Assembly (NCBI GenBank): GCA_022825665.1
Contig: JAJDWI010000109.1
Coordinates: 1-43,043 of the forward strand
DNA from: Candidatus Poribacteria bacterium
Lineage (GTDB): Bacteria; Poribacteria; WGA-4E; WGA-3G
DNA: 43,043 nt
Direction of reading: 5' to 3'
The notes beneath the pieces are model-generated. The model was not told the DNA's origin. It did no database searches and worked only from the letters and a program-made list of their open reading frames with translations. Shown piece by piece: positions 37,349-42,371 of the stretch. A program made the translations under genes and the position numbers. Each line of letters begins with the position of its first letter. Positions within the stretch are counted from its first letter, which is position 1.

Positions 37349-38086
37349 TTATTCGTTTGTAGACTTATTTTCAAATTTTGGGTCTATTTCCTTCGCTTTA
37401 GCAAAATCCGCTTCTGCTGCTTCTTGCTGTCCGAGTGCCTGTTTTGATAGTCCACGGTCATGGTAGTATAATGCCTTCTTTGAACTCAGACGTATGCATT
37501 CACTAAAATCAGCAATCGCGCCGTCGTGATCACCGAGTCCAGCCTTGGCAGCACCACGAGTATGATAGTATGCAGCTTTAGATTTGGAATCCTTTGTCAC
37601 CAACTCAAGTGCTGACTCTGCGTCAGATATTGTTTCTTGATATAGTTTTTGTGCTTCTACTTGATTTCCGTGTTCAGTTTCAAATTTACCCAACAGATAC
37701 TTTGTCCATCCACGACTATTATAGGTTCCAGCCACTTTCGGTTTTAAAGTAATACCCTCTGTAAAATCAGATATTGACTCCTGATATATCATTTTAGCTT
37801 TAGTTTTGTCACCTTTTTTCGCTTCTGAATTTGCAATACCAATCTTTGCATGTCCCTTAGATCTATACCAACCATATTTACCGAAAATTGTCCTTAGAAA
37901 CAGGATAAGAAGAAAACCACCCCAAATCCAAATACCTCTCCGCTTCCATGAAATATACTTCCGGAAATTGGACAGACTGAATGAAACGGGATCAAGTCGA
38001 CGTAAAGTGATCAAGTCTACTAATCCTCTGCCGAATGCCCAAAGTTCCATCCTTGCATCTGCGCGTCCTACATACGCTTTTATCAA
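37349..38086 (-). pseudogene. TPR part of a frameshifted protease-TPR gene
   Basis: The frame holds a membrane-spanning segment (WIWGGFLLILFLRTIFG) and TPR repeats ending GQQEAAEADFAKAKEIDP. Alone it has no natural start. Adding one G to the poly-G run (plus-strand CCCC at 38140-38143) joins it to the protease frame upstream and gives GDKLRKQGEFRKAIAHYDSA, a proper TPR start. It is therefore the 3' half of one gene of about 510 residues, broken by a one-base deletion or a homopolymer error. Confidence 0.75.
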
Positions 38087-38886
38087 TTCTGGGTTAAGTC
38101 CAATTGCAGAATCATAATGCGCGATTGCCTTTCTGAATTCCCCTGTTTTCGCAATTTATCACCTTCTTGGGTTTCGGTAAATGTGCGTATGTGTGGTAAT
38201 TTCTGCCACTCCTTTAACGGTATTGATTCCCCAGTGTTTTTGATTAATTTCTTTAGGGTGTTTGAAGGGATCGCATAACTATATACTTCATCACCGGAGG
38301 CATCTACTCCTATGGTCTCTCCACGACGATTAAAAATAGGACTCCCACTACTACCCCCAGTAGTGCCGATTTTCATGCGAATTCGCTGGTCTCTTCTCCG
38401 AGTAACATCAATAGCTCCGTGTATTATTTCAGCATTTCCATTGGGATAACCAACAGCACATATAACGTCTTCATCCATAATCTCAGCACTATCACCAAGC
38501 GTAAGCGGAATACCTTCACCAGCAACCTTTAACAGAATCAGGTCATTTTCAATGTCGTATGCCTCAACACTTTCTATCTGAAATCCTTCTTGTTTTCCAC
38601 CAAATTTCGCGATAATGGAAGATCTCCCCTGTACAACGTGAAAATTAGTGACTATCAGGTGCTTATCAACGAAAAAACCACTTGCATAACTTATATGCTC
38701 TTCAATAATTTGAGCAGATGAAACTTCATCAATTACTTCCTGTTGATATTTTGTAGGGTTATCCACCTCAAAAGATACAACATAATCACTATATGATGCT
38801 GGTTTCCATAACTCTAAACGAACAACAGAATTAGCTAAGGCATTTTCAGCAATCTGTTGTAAAGTTAGATCTTTATTTCGTTCCAT
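38083..38886 (-). CDS. Trypsin-like serine protease part (frameshifted)
   Basis: Starts at 38886 (M16 of the longest frame), where an AAGGAC box lies ahead and the N-terminus aligns with the paralogue (MERNKDLTLQQ against MEQKRDNLSQQ). The triad is intact: H98 (TNFHVV), D130 (ENDLILL) and S195 (GGSSGSP), numbered from the first ATG of the frame. After 'EGDKLRKQGNSE' the frame runs into unrelated residues and stops at 38083; the TPR part continues in another frame. The upstream promoter and ileS leader face away from it. Confidence 0.8.
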   Translation of the reverse strand: MERNKDLTLQQIAENALANSVVRLELWKPASYSDYVVSFEVDNPTKYQQEVIDEVSSAQIIEEHISYASGFFVDKHLIVTNFHVVQGRSSIIAKFGGKQEGFQIESVEAYDIENDLILLKVAGEGIPLTLGDSAEIMDEDVICAVGYPNGNAEIIHGAIDVTRRRDQRIRMKIGTTGGSSGSPIFNRRGETIGVDASGDEVYSYAIPSNTLKKLIKNTGESIPLKEWQKLPHIRTFTETQEGDKLRKQGNSERQSRIMILQLDLTQN

Positions 38887-38948
38887 AACGTTGTCCTTTT
38901 TACTATGTCCATTATACACCAAATCACTCAAGGTTTATACAAAAAGAT

Positions 38949-38978
38949 TTGACATGATACCATCCCGTATAGTATCAT
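38949..38978 (+). promoter_or_regulatory. ileS promoter (TTGACA-18-TATCAT)
   Basis: TTGACA at 38949-38954 and TATCAT at 38973-38978. Transcription would start near 38985, about 30 nt before the leader ORF and 240 nt before ileS. Confidence 0.7.
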
Positions 38979-39015
38979 ATAAGCGTAGAAACGCAATTTC
39001 ACTTAGGATTATCAG

Positions 39016-39129
39016 ATGTTTTTTCAATCGCTTACCACACAGACATTGCAGCCCAATACTACCCCACATCAAGACTCCCTTCGCGCCATACGAATTATTA
39101 CTGCTATTCGTCGTGCTGTGGTGGGCTAA
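39016..39129 (+). CDS. ileS leader peptide (attenuator ORF)
   Basis: A 37-codon ORF with a ribosome site AGGA 7 nt before the ATG. The C-terminal end reads RAIRIITAIRRAVVG: four isoleucine codons (residues 25, 27, 28 and 31) and two valine codons just before the stop, the usual build of a leader peptide that senses a charged tRNA. The bases of its last three codons (GTGGTGGGC, 39118-39126) can pair with the 5' arm of the terminator at 39160-39168 (nine pairs, one G-U). A ribosome stalled at the Ile codons would leave that region free; one at the stop codon would cover it. Confidence 0.7.
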   Translation: MFFQSLTTQTLQPNTTPHQDSLRAIRIITAIRRAVVG

Positions 39130-39156
39130 TCGCAAGCAGATAAGAAGTATTATTGT

Positions 39157-39203
39157 AACGCCCATCACTGAAACAGACATTTCGGTGGGGCGTTTTGTTT
39201 TTT
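39157..39203 (+). terminator. Attenuator terminator before ileS
   Basis: AACGCCC (39157-39163) plus CAC pair with GTG plus GGGCGTT (39185-39194), with a 2-nt bulge and a 16-nt loop, followed by TTGTTTTTT. It lies between the ileS promoter and the ileS start and has no complete gene in front of it on this strand other than the leader ORF. The 5' arm can alternatively pair with 39118-39126. Confidence 0.78.
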
Positions 39204-39227
39204 AAAGACTACATAAGGAAATATCGC

Positions 39228-42200
39228 ATGTTTGAAGATGTATCACCACAATTTACCTTTGCTGAAAAAGAGAAACAGACCCTTGAATACTGGCGGGAGA
39301 ACGACATATTCCAGAAAAGCATGGACATGCACAAAGACGCGCCGCCTTTTGTTTTTCTTGAAGGTCCTCCATTTGCAAATGCACCTCCCGGTGTGCATCA
39401 CGTCCTCGCGCGCATCATGAAAGATGCTGTCTGCAGATATAAGACGATGACGGGACATTACGTCCACAGAAAAGCAGGTTGGGACACACACGGACTTCCC
39501 GTCGAATATCAGGTTGAAAAGCAACTAAATATCACGAATAAAGCCGAATTAGAGGCTTACGGTGTTCAGAATTTTATTGAGAAGTGCAAAGAAAACGTCT
39601 TTCAATACGAACAGGATTGGCGGGAGATGACAGAACGCATCGGGTTCTGGGTCAACTTAGACGAGGCATACATCACGTTGTCAAACGATTACATTGAAAG
39701 CGTCTGGTGGGTTCTTCGGCAAGCATGGGATAAAAAACTGCTATATCAAGGACATAAGGTGCAACCGTATTGCTATCGGTGTGGCACAACATTAGCAAGC
39801 CACGAAGTTGCACTCGGTTATCAAGAAGTGGCAGACCCATCCATCTTTGTTCGCTTTCCATTAAAGAATAAGGAAAATACCTATCTGCTTGTATGGACAA
39901 CGACCCCGTGGACATTACCATCTAACCTTGCAGTAGCAGTCGGTGAAGAATACGATTATGTCGCTGTTGAAGACAACGGACGAAAACTTATCCTTGCAAA
40001 GGAATGTATATCAAGTTTATTTGATGATACACCTCCAAAAATCATTGAAAGCTACAAAGGCACTGATCTCCGCAATTGGGAATACGAACCGCTGTTTGAC
40101 AGTGGACAACATGATAAGAAGTCCCACTACATAGTCACCGCTAATTTCGTAACGACCACAGAAGGCAGCGGATTAGTCCACATCGCTCCCGCGTTCGGAC
40201 AAGATGACTACGATATTGGACAGGAACACAATCTGCCGTTTGTGCAATTAGTTGGAGATGACGGTAAATTTGTCCCAGAAGTTAAAGATGAATGGATGGG
40301 TGATTATGTCAAAGATGCTGACCCAAAAATCATTGAAAACTTGGACAGTCGAGGCTTATTGTTCAATGCAACTGAGTATACTCACCAATACCCGTTCTGT
40401 TGGCGATGCGATAATCCACTACTCTATTATGCTCGCGAATCGTGGTTTATCCGCACAACTGCCATCCGAGACCAGATGCGACAACACAATCAGGAAATCA
40501 ACTGGTATCCCGAACACATCAAAGATGGCAGATTCGGTAATTGGTTAGAAAACAACATTGATTGGGGATTGAGTCGTGAACGCTACTGGGGAACACCGCT
40601 ACCTGTCTGGATATGTGATGATTGTGGACATCAACACTGTGTTGGTAGTATCACAGAATTGAAAGAACTCGGCAATGATGTCCCTGATGACATTGAACTA
40701 CACCGACCTTATGTTGATGATGTAGTGCTGACCTGTGAGAAATGCAGCGGTACAATGCATCGTGTGCAGGATGTGATTGACTGTTGGTTCGACTCAGGGT
40801 GTGCACACACCGCACAATGGCACTATCCATTTGAAAACAAAGAACTATTTGAACGTGCCTATCCGGTAGATTTCATCTCAGAGGCAATTGACCAAACCCG
40901 TGGATGGTTCTATAGCCTATTAGCAACAGGCACACTCTTATACGACAAACCTGCATACAAAAATTGTCTCTGCCTTGAACTGATCCTCGCTTCTGATGGA
41001 TCAAAAATGAGTAAAAGTCGAGGCAATACAGTTGATCCCTGGACTATATTGAACGAGCAGGGGGCAGATGCGGTACGCTGGTATCTGTTCACAGCATCAC
41101 CACCATGGACACAGCTTACTTTCCAGATTGAAGGCGTTGACGAAGCATTGAAAAAGTTTATGGGAACACTTCAAAATGTATACAGTTTTTTCGTGATGTA
41201 TGCCAATTTGGAAAAAGTAGATGTCATGGGAGATGCGCCACCTATTTCAGGACGTGCTACCATAGACAGATGGATTCTGTCACGTCTGCATACCTTAATA
41301 GACAAAGTGCGTGATGACATGGAGAATTACCACCTCACGAATGCCCCTCGTGCTATTGAGTCGTTTGTAGATGACCTTAGCAACTGGTATGTACGCCGTT
41401 CTCGTGACCGATTCTGGGGTGCGGAGTCAGGACCCGATAAGCAAGCTGCTTACGCTACTTTGTATGAAGTGCTTGTTACCTTAGCAAAACTCTCTGCACC
41501 GTTCATTCCGTTCTTAGCGGATGAACTCTACCGAAACTTAGTCGGTTCGCTTGATTCCGATGCACCAATCAGCGTTCACCTTGTGGAATACCCAGTCGCA
41601 GATTCAGAATTCATAGATACAACATTAGAAAAGGATATGGCATTCACACGTGAGGTAATCAGTATGGGACACGCGGCTCGAAATCGTTCTGGTATTAAGA
41701 CGCGCCAACCCCTTGCTGAAATCACACTCGGTGGATTATCAGATAAAGAAAAGGAAACCATCAATCGCATGGCATCCTTTGTTCACGATGAATTGAATGT
41801 TAAGGATATCGTCTTTACTGAGGAATTGCATACTTATGCACAAGTTACCCTCAAACCGAACTTCAAGGTGTTGGGACCGAAATATGGCAAAGGCGTACAG
41901 GCAATTGCAAAAGCACTCACAACCGCAGATGCAATGCAGCTAAAAGCCGAATTGGAAGCAAATGGGAGTCTGCAGATTGATGCATCAGGGGAAACATATA
42001 CACTTGAGTCAACTGAAATAGACGTGCAAACACAGAATCGGGAAGGCTTTTTTGTTGAGGTGGATGCAAGAAAATTTGTGGCACTTTCAACGGAATTGAC
42101 GCACGAGTTAGTGCTTGAAGGGATGGCACGTGAACTTGTCAACAAAATCCAGAATATGCGGAAGGATGCCGATTTTAACGTGTCTGATAGGATTAAGCTC

Positions 42201-42371
42201 AGTGTGAAAACATCATCAGAACTTGTATCGGAAGCATTTGATACACATCGGGATTATATCCTCACAGAAACCTTGACGACAGAAGTCGTTGAATCTGTTG
42301 GTGAAAATGCCTTCAGTCTTGAGCAGAAACTCAACGGTGAACCGGCGATGCTGAGTGTCGAGCAGGTATAG
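39228..42371 (+). CDS. ileS: Isoleucyl-tRNA synthetase with GXHH signature
   Basis: 1047 residues from the ATG at 39228; the longer frame would begin inside the terminator, and an AAGG box lies about 9 nt ahead of this start. Class I synthetase charging tRNA-Ile. The KMSKS motif is canonical (residues 593-597, DGSKMSKSRGN). The first signature reads FANAPPGVHHVLAR: GVHH (residues 55-58) where most IleRS have HIGH, the swapped GXHH arrangement. The editing domain, cysteine-rich region (CYRCG; CEKCSG, CRW-type CDDCGH) and anticodon-binding C-terminus are all present, typical of the long IleRS form. Controlled by the leader peptide and terminator upstream. Confidence 0.95.
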   Translation: MFEDVSPQFTFAEKEKQTLEYWRENDIFQKSMDMHKDAPPFVFLEGPPFANAPPGVHHVLARIMKDAVCRYKTMTGHYVHRKAGWDTHGLPVEYQVEKQLNITNKAELEAYGVQNFIEKCKENVFQYEQDWREMTERIGFWVNLDEAYITLSNDYIESVWWVLRQAWDKKLLYQGHKVQPYCYRCGTTLASHEVALGYQEVADPSIFVRFPLKNKENTYLLVWTTTPWTLPSNLAVAVGEEYDYVAVEDNGRKLILAKECISSLFDDTPPKIIESYKGTDLRNWEYEPLFDSGQHDKKSHYIVTANFVTTTEGSGLVHIAPAFGQDDYDIGQEHNLPFVQLVGDDGKFVPEVKDEWMGDYVKDADPKIIENLDSRGLLFNATEYTHQYPFCWRCDNPLLYYARESWFIRTTAIRDQMRQHNQEINWYPEHIKDGRFGNWLENNIDWGLSRERYWGTPLPVWICDDCGHQHCVGSITELKELGNDVPDDIELHRPYVDDVVLTCEKCSGTMHRVQDVIDCWFDSGCAHTAQWHYPFENKELFERAYPVDFISEAIDQTRGWFYSLLATGTLLYDKPAYKNCLCLELILASDGSKMSKSRGNTVDPWTILNEQGADAVRWYLFTASPPWTQLTFQIEGVDEALKKFMGTLQNVYSFFVMYANLEKVDVMGDAPPISGRATIDRWILSRLHTLIDKVRDDMENYHLTNAPRAIESFVDDLSNWYVRRSRDRFWGAESGPDKQAAYATLYEVLVTLAKLSAPFIPFLADELYRNLVGSLDSDAPISVHLVEYPVADSEFIDTTLEKDMAFTREVISMGHAARNRSGIKTRQPLAEITLGGLSDKEKETINRMASFVHDELNVKDIVFTEELHTYAQVTLKPNFKVLGPKYGKGVQAIAKALTTADAMQLKAELEANGSLQIDASGETYTLESTEIDVQTQNREGFFVEVDARKFVALSTELTHELVLEGMARELVNKIQNMRKDADFNVSDRIKLSVKTSSELVSEAFDTHRDYILTETLTTEVVESVGENAFSLEQKLNGEPAMLSVEQV

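Follow-up and report, generated by a model that had tools for sequence, protein, structure and literature searches.

We find that ileS of a Candidatus Poribacteria bacterium is very probably governed by a ribosome-mediated transcription attenuator that senses charged tRNA-Ile, a reading drawn from comparative sequence analysis. The window (the whole stretch of 43,043 nucleotides analysed; G000:C25 in our genome set) belongs to Candidatus Poribacteria, and the nearest named record (L032) has an IleRS protein that is 98% identical. The original prediction had placed a leader-peptide attenuator ahead of ileS, and this reading is now supported by a conserved ORF with Ile codons, by pairing of segments 2 and 3, and by codon-matched leaders at other genes.

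The promoter, ribosome site, 37-codon ORF, terminator and ileS start all lie where they had been predicted, on the plus strand. The sigma-70-type promoter (38949–38978) comprises TTGACA at 38949–38954, an 18-nt spacer and TATCAT at 38973–38978; a promoter-like TTGACA...TGTAGTATNAT arrangement is also found ahead of the leader in same-family loci L007, L009, L018 and L034. A Shine-Dalgarno AGGA (39005–39008; GGA or GAG at this position in most relatives) stands 7 nt 5' of the ATG of the leader peptide ORF, MFFQSLTTQTLQPNTTPHQDSLRAIRIITAIRRAVVG, which ends in TAA (39016–39129). Its regulatory Ile codons, 25 (ATA), 27, 28 and 31 (ATT), occupy 39088–39108 and are the most conserved part of the leader. 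The terminal codons V V G form segment 2, GTGGTGGGC (39118–39126), the 5' strand of a putative antiterminator. Segment 3, GCCCATCAC (39160–39168), is predicted from pairing analysis to take part in both the 2:3 antiterminator and the 3:4 terminator. The intrinsic terminator hairpin with its U-rich tail (39158–39203) is conserved between ORF and ileS in relatives. The proposed regulated gene, ileS, encodes isoleucyl-tRNA synthetase (39228–42371, ATG at 39228; NCBIfam TIGR00392, E = 6.6e-291, with Pfam in agreement). Because the upstream neighbour of the leader (38083–38931, minus strand) is divergent, the terminator ahead of ileS does not mark the end of a preceding gene.

We propose that, when Ile-tRNA is ample, the leading ribosome would reach the TAA at 39127–39129 and cover segment 2, whereupon the 3:4 terminator would form and transcription would stop near 39203. 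When Ile-tRNA is scarce, the ribosome would stall at Ile codons 25–28, which lie 21–30 nt upstream of segment 2. Segment 2 would then be left free to pair with segment 3 ahead of the synthesis of segment 4, and RNA polymerase would read on into ileS. If the leader is untranslated, segment 1 (39030–39039) may sequester segment 2, which would promote termination; this is the least certain step. The outcome would be set by the order of synthesis, as in classical attenuators.

The last leader codons had been predicted to be complementary to the 5' arm of the terminator. In the window, segments 2 and 3 form 9 contiguous pairs (−17.6 kcal/mol; z = −4.8), a pairing equalled by none of 300 dinucleotide shuffles. 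We took ileS upstream regions from relatives across the phylum and tested 47 distinct terminator-bearing loci, spread over six families. All 47 had 2:3 complementarity that excludes the 3:4 terminator, with segment 2 near the stop codon. The pairing was mostly matched by at most 1% of dinucleotide shuffles, the weakest loci being G042 (7%), L027 (3.7%), and L013 and L121 (2.7% each). Segments 2 and 3 lie an almost constant distance apart within a clade (~32 nt for most members of the window's family), and the gap between terminator and ileS varies from ~20 to more than 300 nt. Many relatives (L003, L012, L021, L022, L024, L025 and L113) carry 100–300 nt of repeat-like sequence between terminator and ileS, of the TTATCAGTT type or, in L003, TGTAGGGGCGGGG, as if small mobile elements insert there.

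Compensatory change was evident between families, where pairing is kept while the segments themselves change: segment 2/3 partners include GTGGTGGGC/GCCCATCAC, GCGATGGTGGGC/GCCCATCATCG, TTAGGGTGGTGGGC/GCCCATCATCCTGA, GGGCTGAGGATGGGG/GCCCATCATCAGCC and GGCGGCGAGCGGGC/GCCCATCGCCGC, and 3:4 in other families has three pairs with changes on both sides. Within the window's family, the outermost 2:3 pair is altered on both sides in L017 and L034 (GTGGTGGGT with ACCCATCAC), but formal covariation is weak there (score reached in 35 of 500 shuffles) because the paired segments vary little.

Predicted folding gives −19.4 kcal/mol for the terminator hairpin and −16.4 kcal/mol for the antiterminator hairpin. 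At equilibrium, the terminator was favoured nearly always across ten loci, even with segment 2 free; the switch must therefore be kinetic, as in classical attenuators. We did not retain equilibrium folding as proof of the switch, as it is silent on kinetics.

For segment 1, the CCCAC at 39063–39067 that had been suggested as a weak 1:2 partner was rejected, since relatives do not keep it. GCTTACCACA at 39030–39039 is a plausible, better candidate: it could form 10 pairs with 39117–39126 in ribosome-free RNA, and this segment near the ORF start is kept in most of the window's family. GCTCACC-type segments occur at roughly the same position in the leaders of other families, and the 1:2 pairing of the G055 citramalate synthase leader reaches 17 pairs. 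Because the G-rich segment 2 finds partners readily, segment 1 pairing within the window's family was not significant against shuffles (mean z = −0.7). Note that a 1:2 hairpin guarding against read-through without translation is classical, although not all leader-peptide attenuators have one.

The reading frame is open and kept in all 32 same-family leaders, with ORF lengths of 28 to 49 codons, and the spacer after the leader stop shows single-base variation among them. Only the Ile block is strongly conserved among these ORFs (pN/pS in the window's family 0.32, versus 0.85 for the remainder of the leader ORF), and synonymous changes are seen at leader Ile (ATT/ATC/ATA) and Ala (GCT/GCA/GCC) codons. 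From this conservation of frame and mode of evolution, we infer that the leader ORF is translated. RNA constraint could be partly responsible for how slowly the Ile block changes, so conservation of the block alone is no proof of translation. The ORF end had been described as rich in Ile and Val; Ile stands as the sensed residue, and the VVG codons at the very end supply the antiterminator strand. Val was accordingly rejected as a co-sensed residue, the terminal VV being replaced by DGG in other families. With its own promoter, ribosome site and terminator, and a conserved position, the ORF might instead encode a small functional protein, the terminator being its own. We consider this highly improbable, as little constraint acts on the peptide beyond the Ile block, the conserved ORF end is the antiterminator strand, and between families just the codon class survives, tracking the downstream gene.

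A conserved short ORF with Ile codons, expected in related genomes if ileS is controlled by a leader peptide, is present across the phylum. Beyond the six families, leaders built alike were read in G052, of a seventh family, and in G061, of the other class in the phylum, and Ile-rich leaders are retained in diverged families, including that other class (IIIIRLLQTMVG). Some outgroup ileS leaders (G051 and G055) are rich in aromatic codons and contain few for Ile. In families f2, f4 and f7 (for example L125–L130 and L171), the attenuator is retained ahead of an ileS only ~37–45% identical to that of the window, and a different ileS may have taken the place of the original gene while the leader stayed. 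Individual genomes showed further peculiarities. In G012, the leader half (L157, G012:C215:25-124) and the terminator with ileS (L014, G012:C131) lie on separate contigs, suggesting an insertion or an assembly break inside the attenuator. G015 has two ileS copies, each with its own attenuator (L015 and L112, on contigs G015:C84 and G015:C74), possibly reflecting a strain mixture in the bin. In G040 (L118, G040:C320), reading from the start codon that the related leader of G037 uses would miss the Ile frame, apparently owing to an insertion of 2 nt that reflects either sequencing error or decay.

The strongest test of the leader-peptide model, one that the original prediction had not anticipated, is the match between codons and genes elsewhere. 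This model predicts cognate codons at other genes and its rivals do not. When the ileS-leader model was run on 36 genomes, strong matches fell ahead of ileS and weaker ones elsewhere, where their contexts revealed the same kind of core ahead of other genes. This conserved switching core consists of a segment 2 coding VVG or DGG, segment 3 GCCCATCA and the terminator. We searched 85 genomes with the core pattern TGGTGGGC-N-GCCCATCA, which represents segments 2 and 3 alone and is ignorant of sensor codons, and obtained 61 matches, against 3 when the pattern was reversed; with a terminator pattern, the counts were 19 and, in the control, 0. One core match (G026:C328), with no gene found downstream, was set aside as probably due to chance.

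The cognate codons follow the gene: Leu at leuS, Tyr at tyrS and DAHP synthases, and Ile at ileS and citramalate synthase. Leaders were found at leuS in G053 (ALALRLRLLGLLRLKSVVG), G043 (VRLRLALAVLSVVG), G048, G039 and G036, and at tyrS in G039 (FLYLFYWCYSDG), G036 (RYWYPSDG) and G049 (YLYYY...YLHGDGG). Two kinds of DAHP synthase have them (G036, G038, G041, G042, G048 and G049; for example TTLYFFYLYLFLLYLRCDGG), as does citramalate synthase in G055 (LISIISIRIARPGGVG) and G051 (VIAIIIIIRIAAPCVVGGG). For these biosynthetic synthases the list is a lower bound, because the start-motif search missed most starts. Example genes of each kind were confirmed against NCBIfam; L179 is a partial leuS that falls under the full-length NCBIfam cut-off, which the whole gene passes. 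Cognate residues made up a fraction of 0.198 of the last 24 codons versus 0.103 ± 0.018 with gene labels shuffled, an approximate figure because representatives and ORF starts were picked by eye. None of 20,000 label shuffles was as high. This comparison took in the ileS, leuS, tyrS and DAHP synthase leaders only, with about one representative per genus and gene, related genera being not fully independent.

These leaders bear on two further explanations. One is that IleRS binds its own leader and uses the terminator and antiterminator as its switch. Synthetase autoregulation is established for E. coli thrS, and alternative hairpins would fit it. We nevertheless give it very little weight, because the same core stands at leuS, tyrS, and citramalate and DAHP synthases, whose products are unrelated or distant proteins, and because the codons change with the gene but the core does not. 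The other is that a constitutive partial terminator sits beside a chance ORF without any amino-acid response, with which the loss of the ileS leader in a few relatives agrees (absent in G019, decayed in G044). The excess of core matches over the control, the cognate codons in every gene class and the 2:3 pairing at every locus tested make this most unlikely.

The core of the proposed attenuator extends beyond ileS. It is somewhat more probable than not, in our judgement, that these are a homologous family in which one conserved core was copied between genes and re-specified by exchange of the sensor codons; the cores at different genes may share a common ancestor or may have converged. We found no core attenuator before leuS or tyrS of the window's family in the upstream stretches read, the start motif having missed several loci, and valS lies ~116 nt after another gene. 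Outside the phylum, the ileS-leader model R1 gave weak matches only on 76 ileS loci (best E = 0.0045). Genus g2 (G018 L148, G021 L149 and G062 L190; also G023, G026, G029 and G079) carries the ileS attenuator a second time, in a drifted form, with the leader ...VLIGIAMYRAVVGE in G021. Where it was read (G018, G021 and G062), the gene after this copy encodes ~717 aa without an NCBIfam match, and the copy looks like a transposed regulator.

In many Gram-positives ileS is instead under T-box control, as the original prediction had remarked, and we detected a T-box upstream of ileS at 5 of 16 loci from other phyla. Most genomes of this lineage have one or two T-boxes. A T-box or another direct RNA sensor (a tRNA or Ile riboswitch) could in principle run ileS, the short ORF being incidental. 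However, no Rfam family reached threshold over the ileS leader and RF00230 had no match in the window, so we rejected a T-box on ileS; this genome has its two T-boxes ahead of ilvB and pheS (pheST) instead (L136, G000:C152, and L137, G000:C96). Moreover, the ORF frame and Ile codons are kept while the remainder of the leader drifts. We regard direct RNA sensing at this gene as very improbable. T-boxes are part of this lineage's repertoire, but on ilvB and pheST, not on ileS.

The mechanism proposed is classical ribosome-mediated attenuation, which is of a known kind. The target gene, the lineage and phylum-wide conservation, and the codon-swapped family appear to be new to the literature searched. 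The open-access literature (subscription papers were mostly uncovered) yielded no leader-peptide attenuator of ileS, no relevant Poribacteria paper and no leader-peptide regulation described for the phylum; the main text of one attenuator survey leaves ileS unmentioned. If our reading holds, an uncultured phylum uses the ribosome to control a gene, ileS, that several other phyla put under a T-box. If the core was indeed copied between genes, the family would be modular in the way that T-boxes are through their specifier codon, with the ribosome as the reader. The leaders, in which a single core is combined with Ile, Leu or Tyr codons, also form a natural series for comparing directly what codons and core each contribute to attenuation.

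Enterobacteria control ilvB and pheST by leader peptides, pheM being that of the E. coli pheST attenuator. We know of no sequence relation between that attenuator and the Poribacteria ileS leader. Poribacteria have T-boxes on ilvB and pheST and a leader peptide on ileS. The pheST attenuator of gamma-proteobacteria (mentioned in PMC1262725) is alike in being ribosome-mediated synthetase attenuation by cognate codons, but it uses Phe instead of Ile, and the Poribacteria window genome has a pheST T-box. The ileS T-box leaders (RF00230) control the same gene in other phyla and share uncharged tRNA-Ile as the signal; there, however, the RNA binds the tRNA directly, and the Poribacteria leader has no Rfam match. 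In several Actinobacteria, ileS has a translational T-box (PMC1262725). Leader peptides of leuS, trpS, thrS and alaS are known in Streptomyces (PMC1262725, PMC8079986). They too are short cognate-codon ORFs before synthetase genes, but they belong to another lineage, have shorter ORFs and are mostly leaderless, and ileS is not among them. Among ilvB leader attenuators, the reporter-tested one of Mycobacterium tuberculosis ilvB1, with LVVI codons (PMC13236596), resembles the Poribacteria leader in its branched-chain codons, its mutually exclusive terminator and antiterminator, and the masking of the antiterminator by a ribosome at the stop codon. It differs in serving a biosynthetic operon with mixed branched-chain codons, whereas the Poribacteria leader is essentially Ile and stands before ileS.
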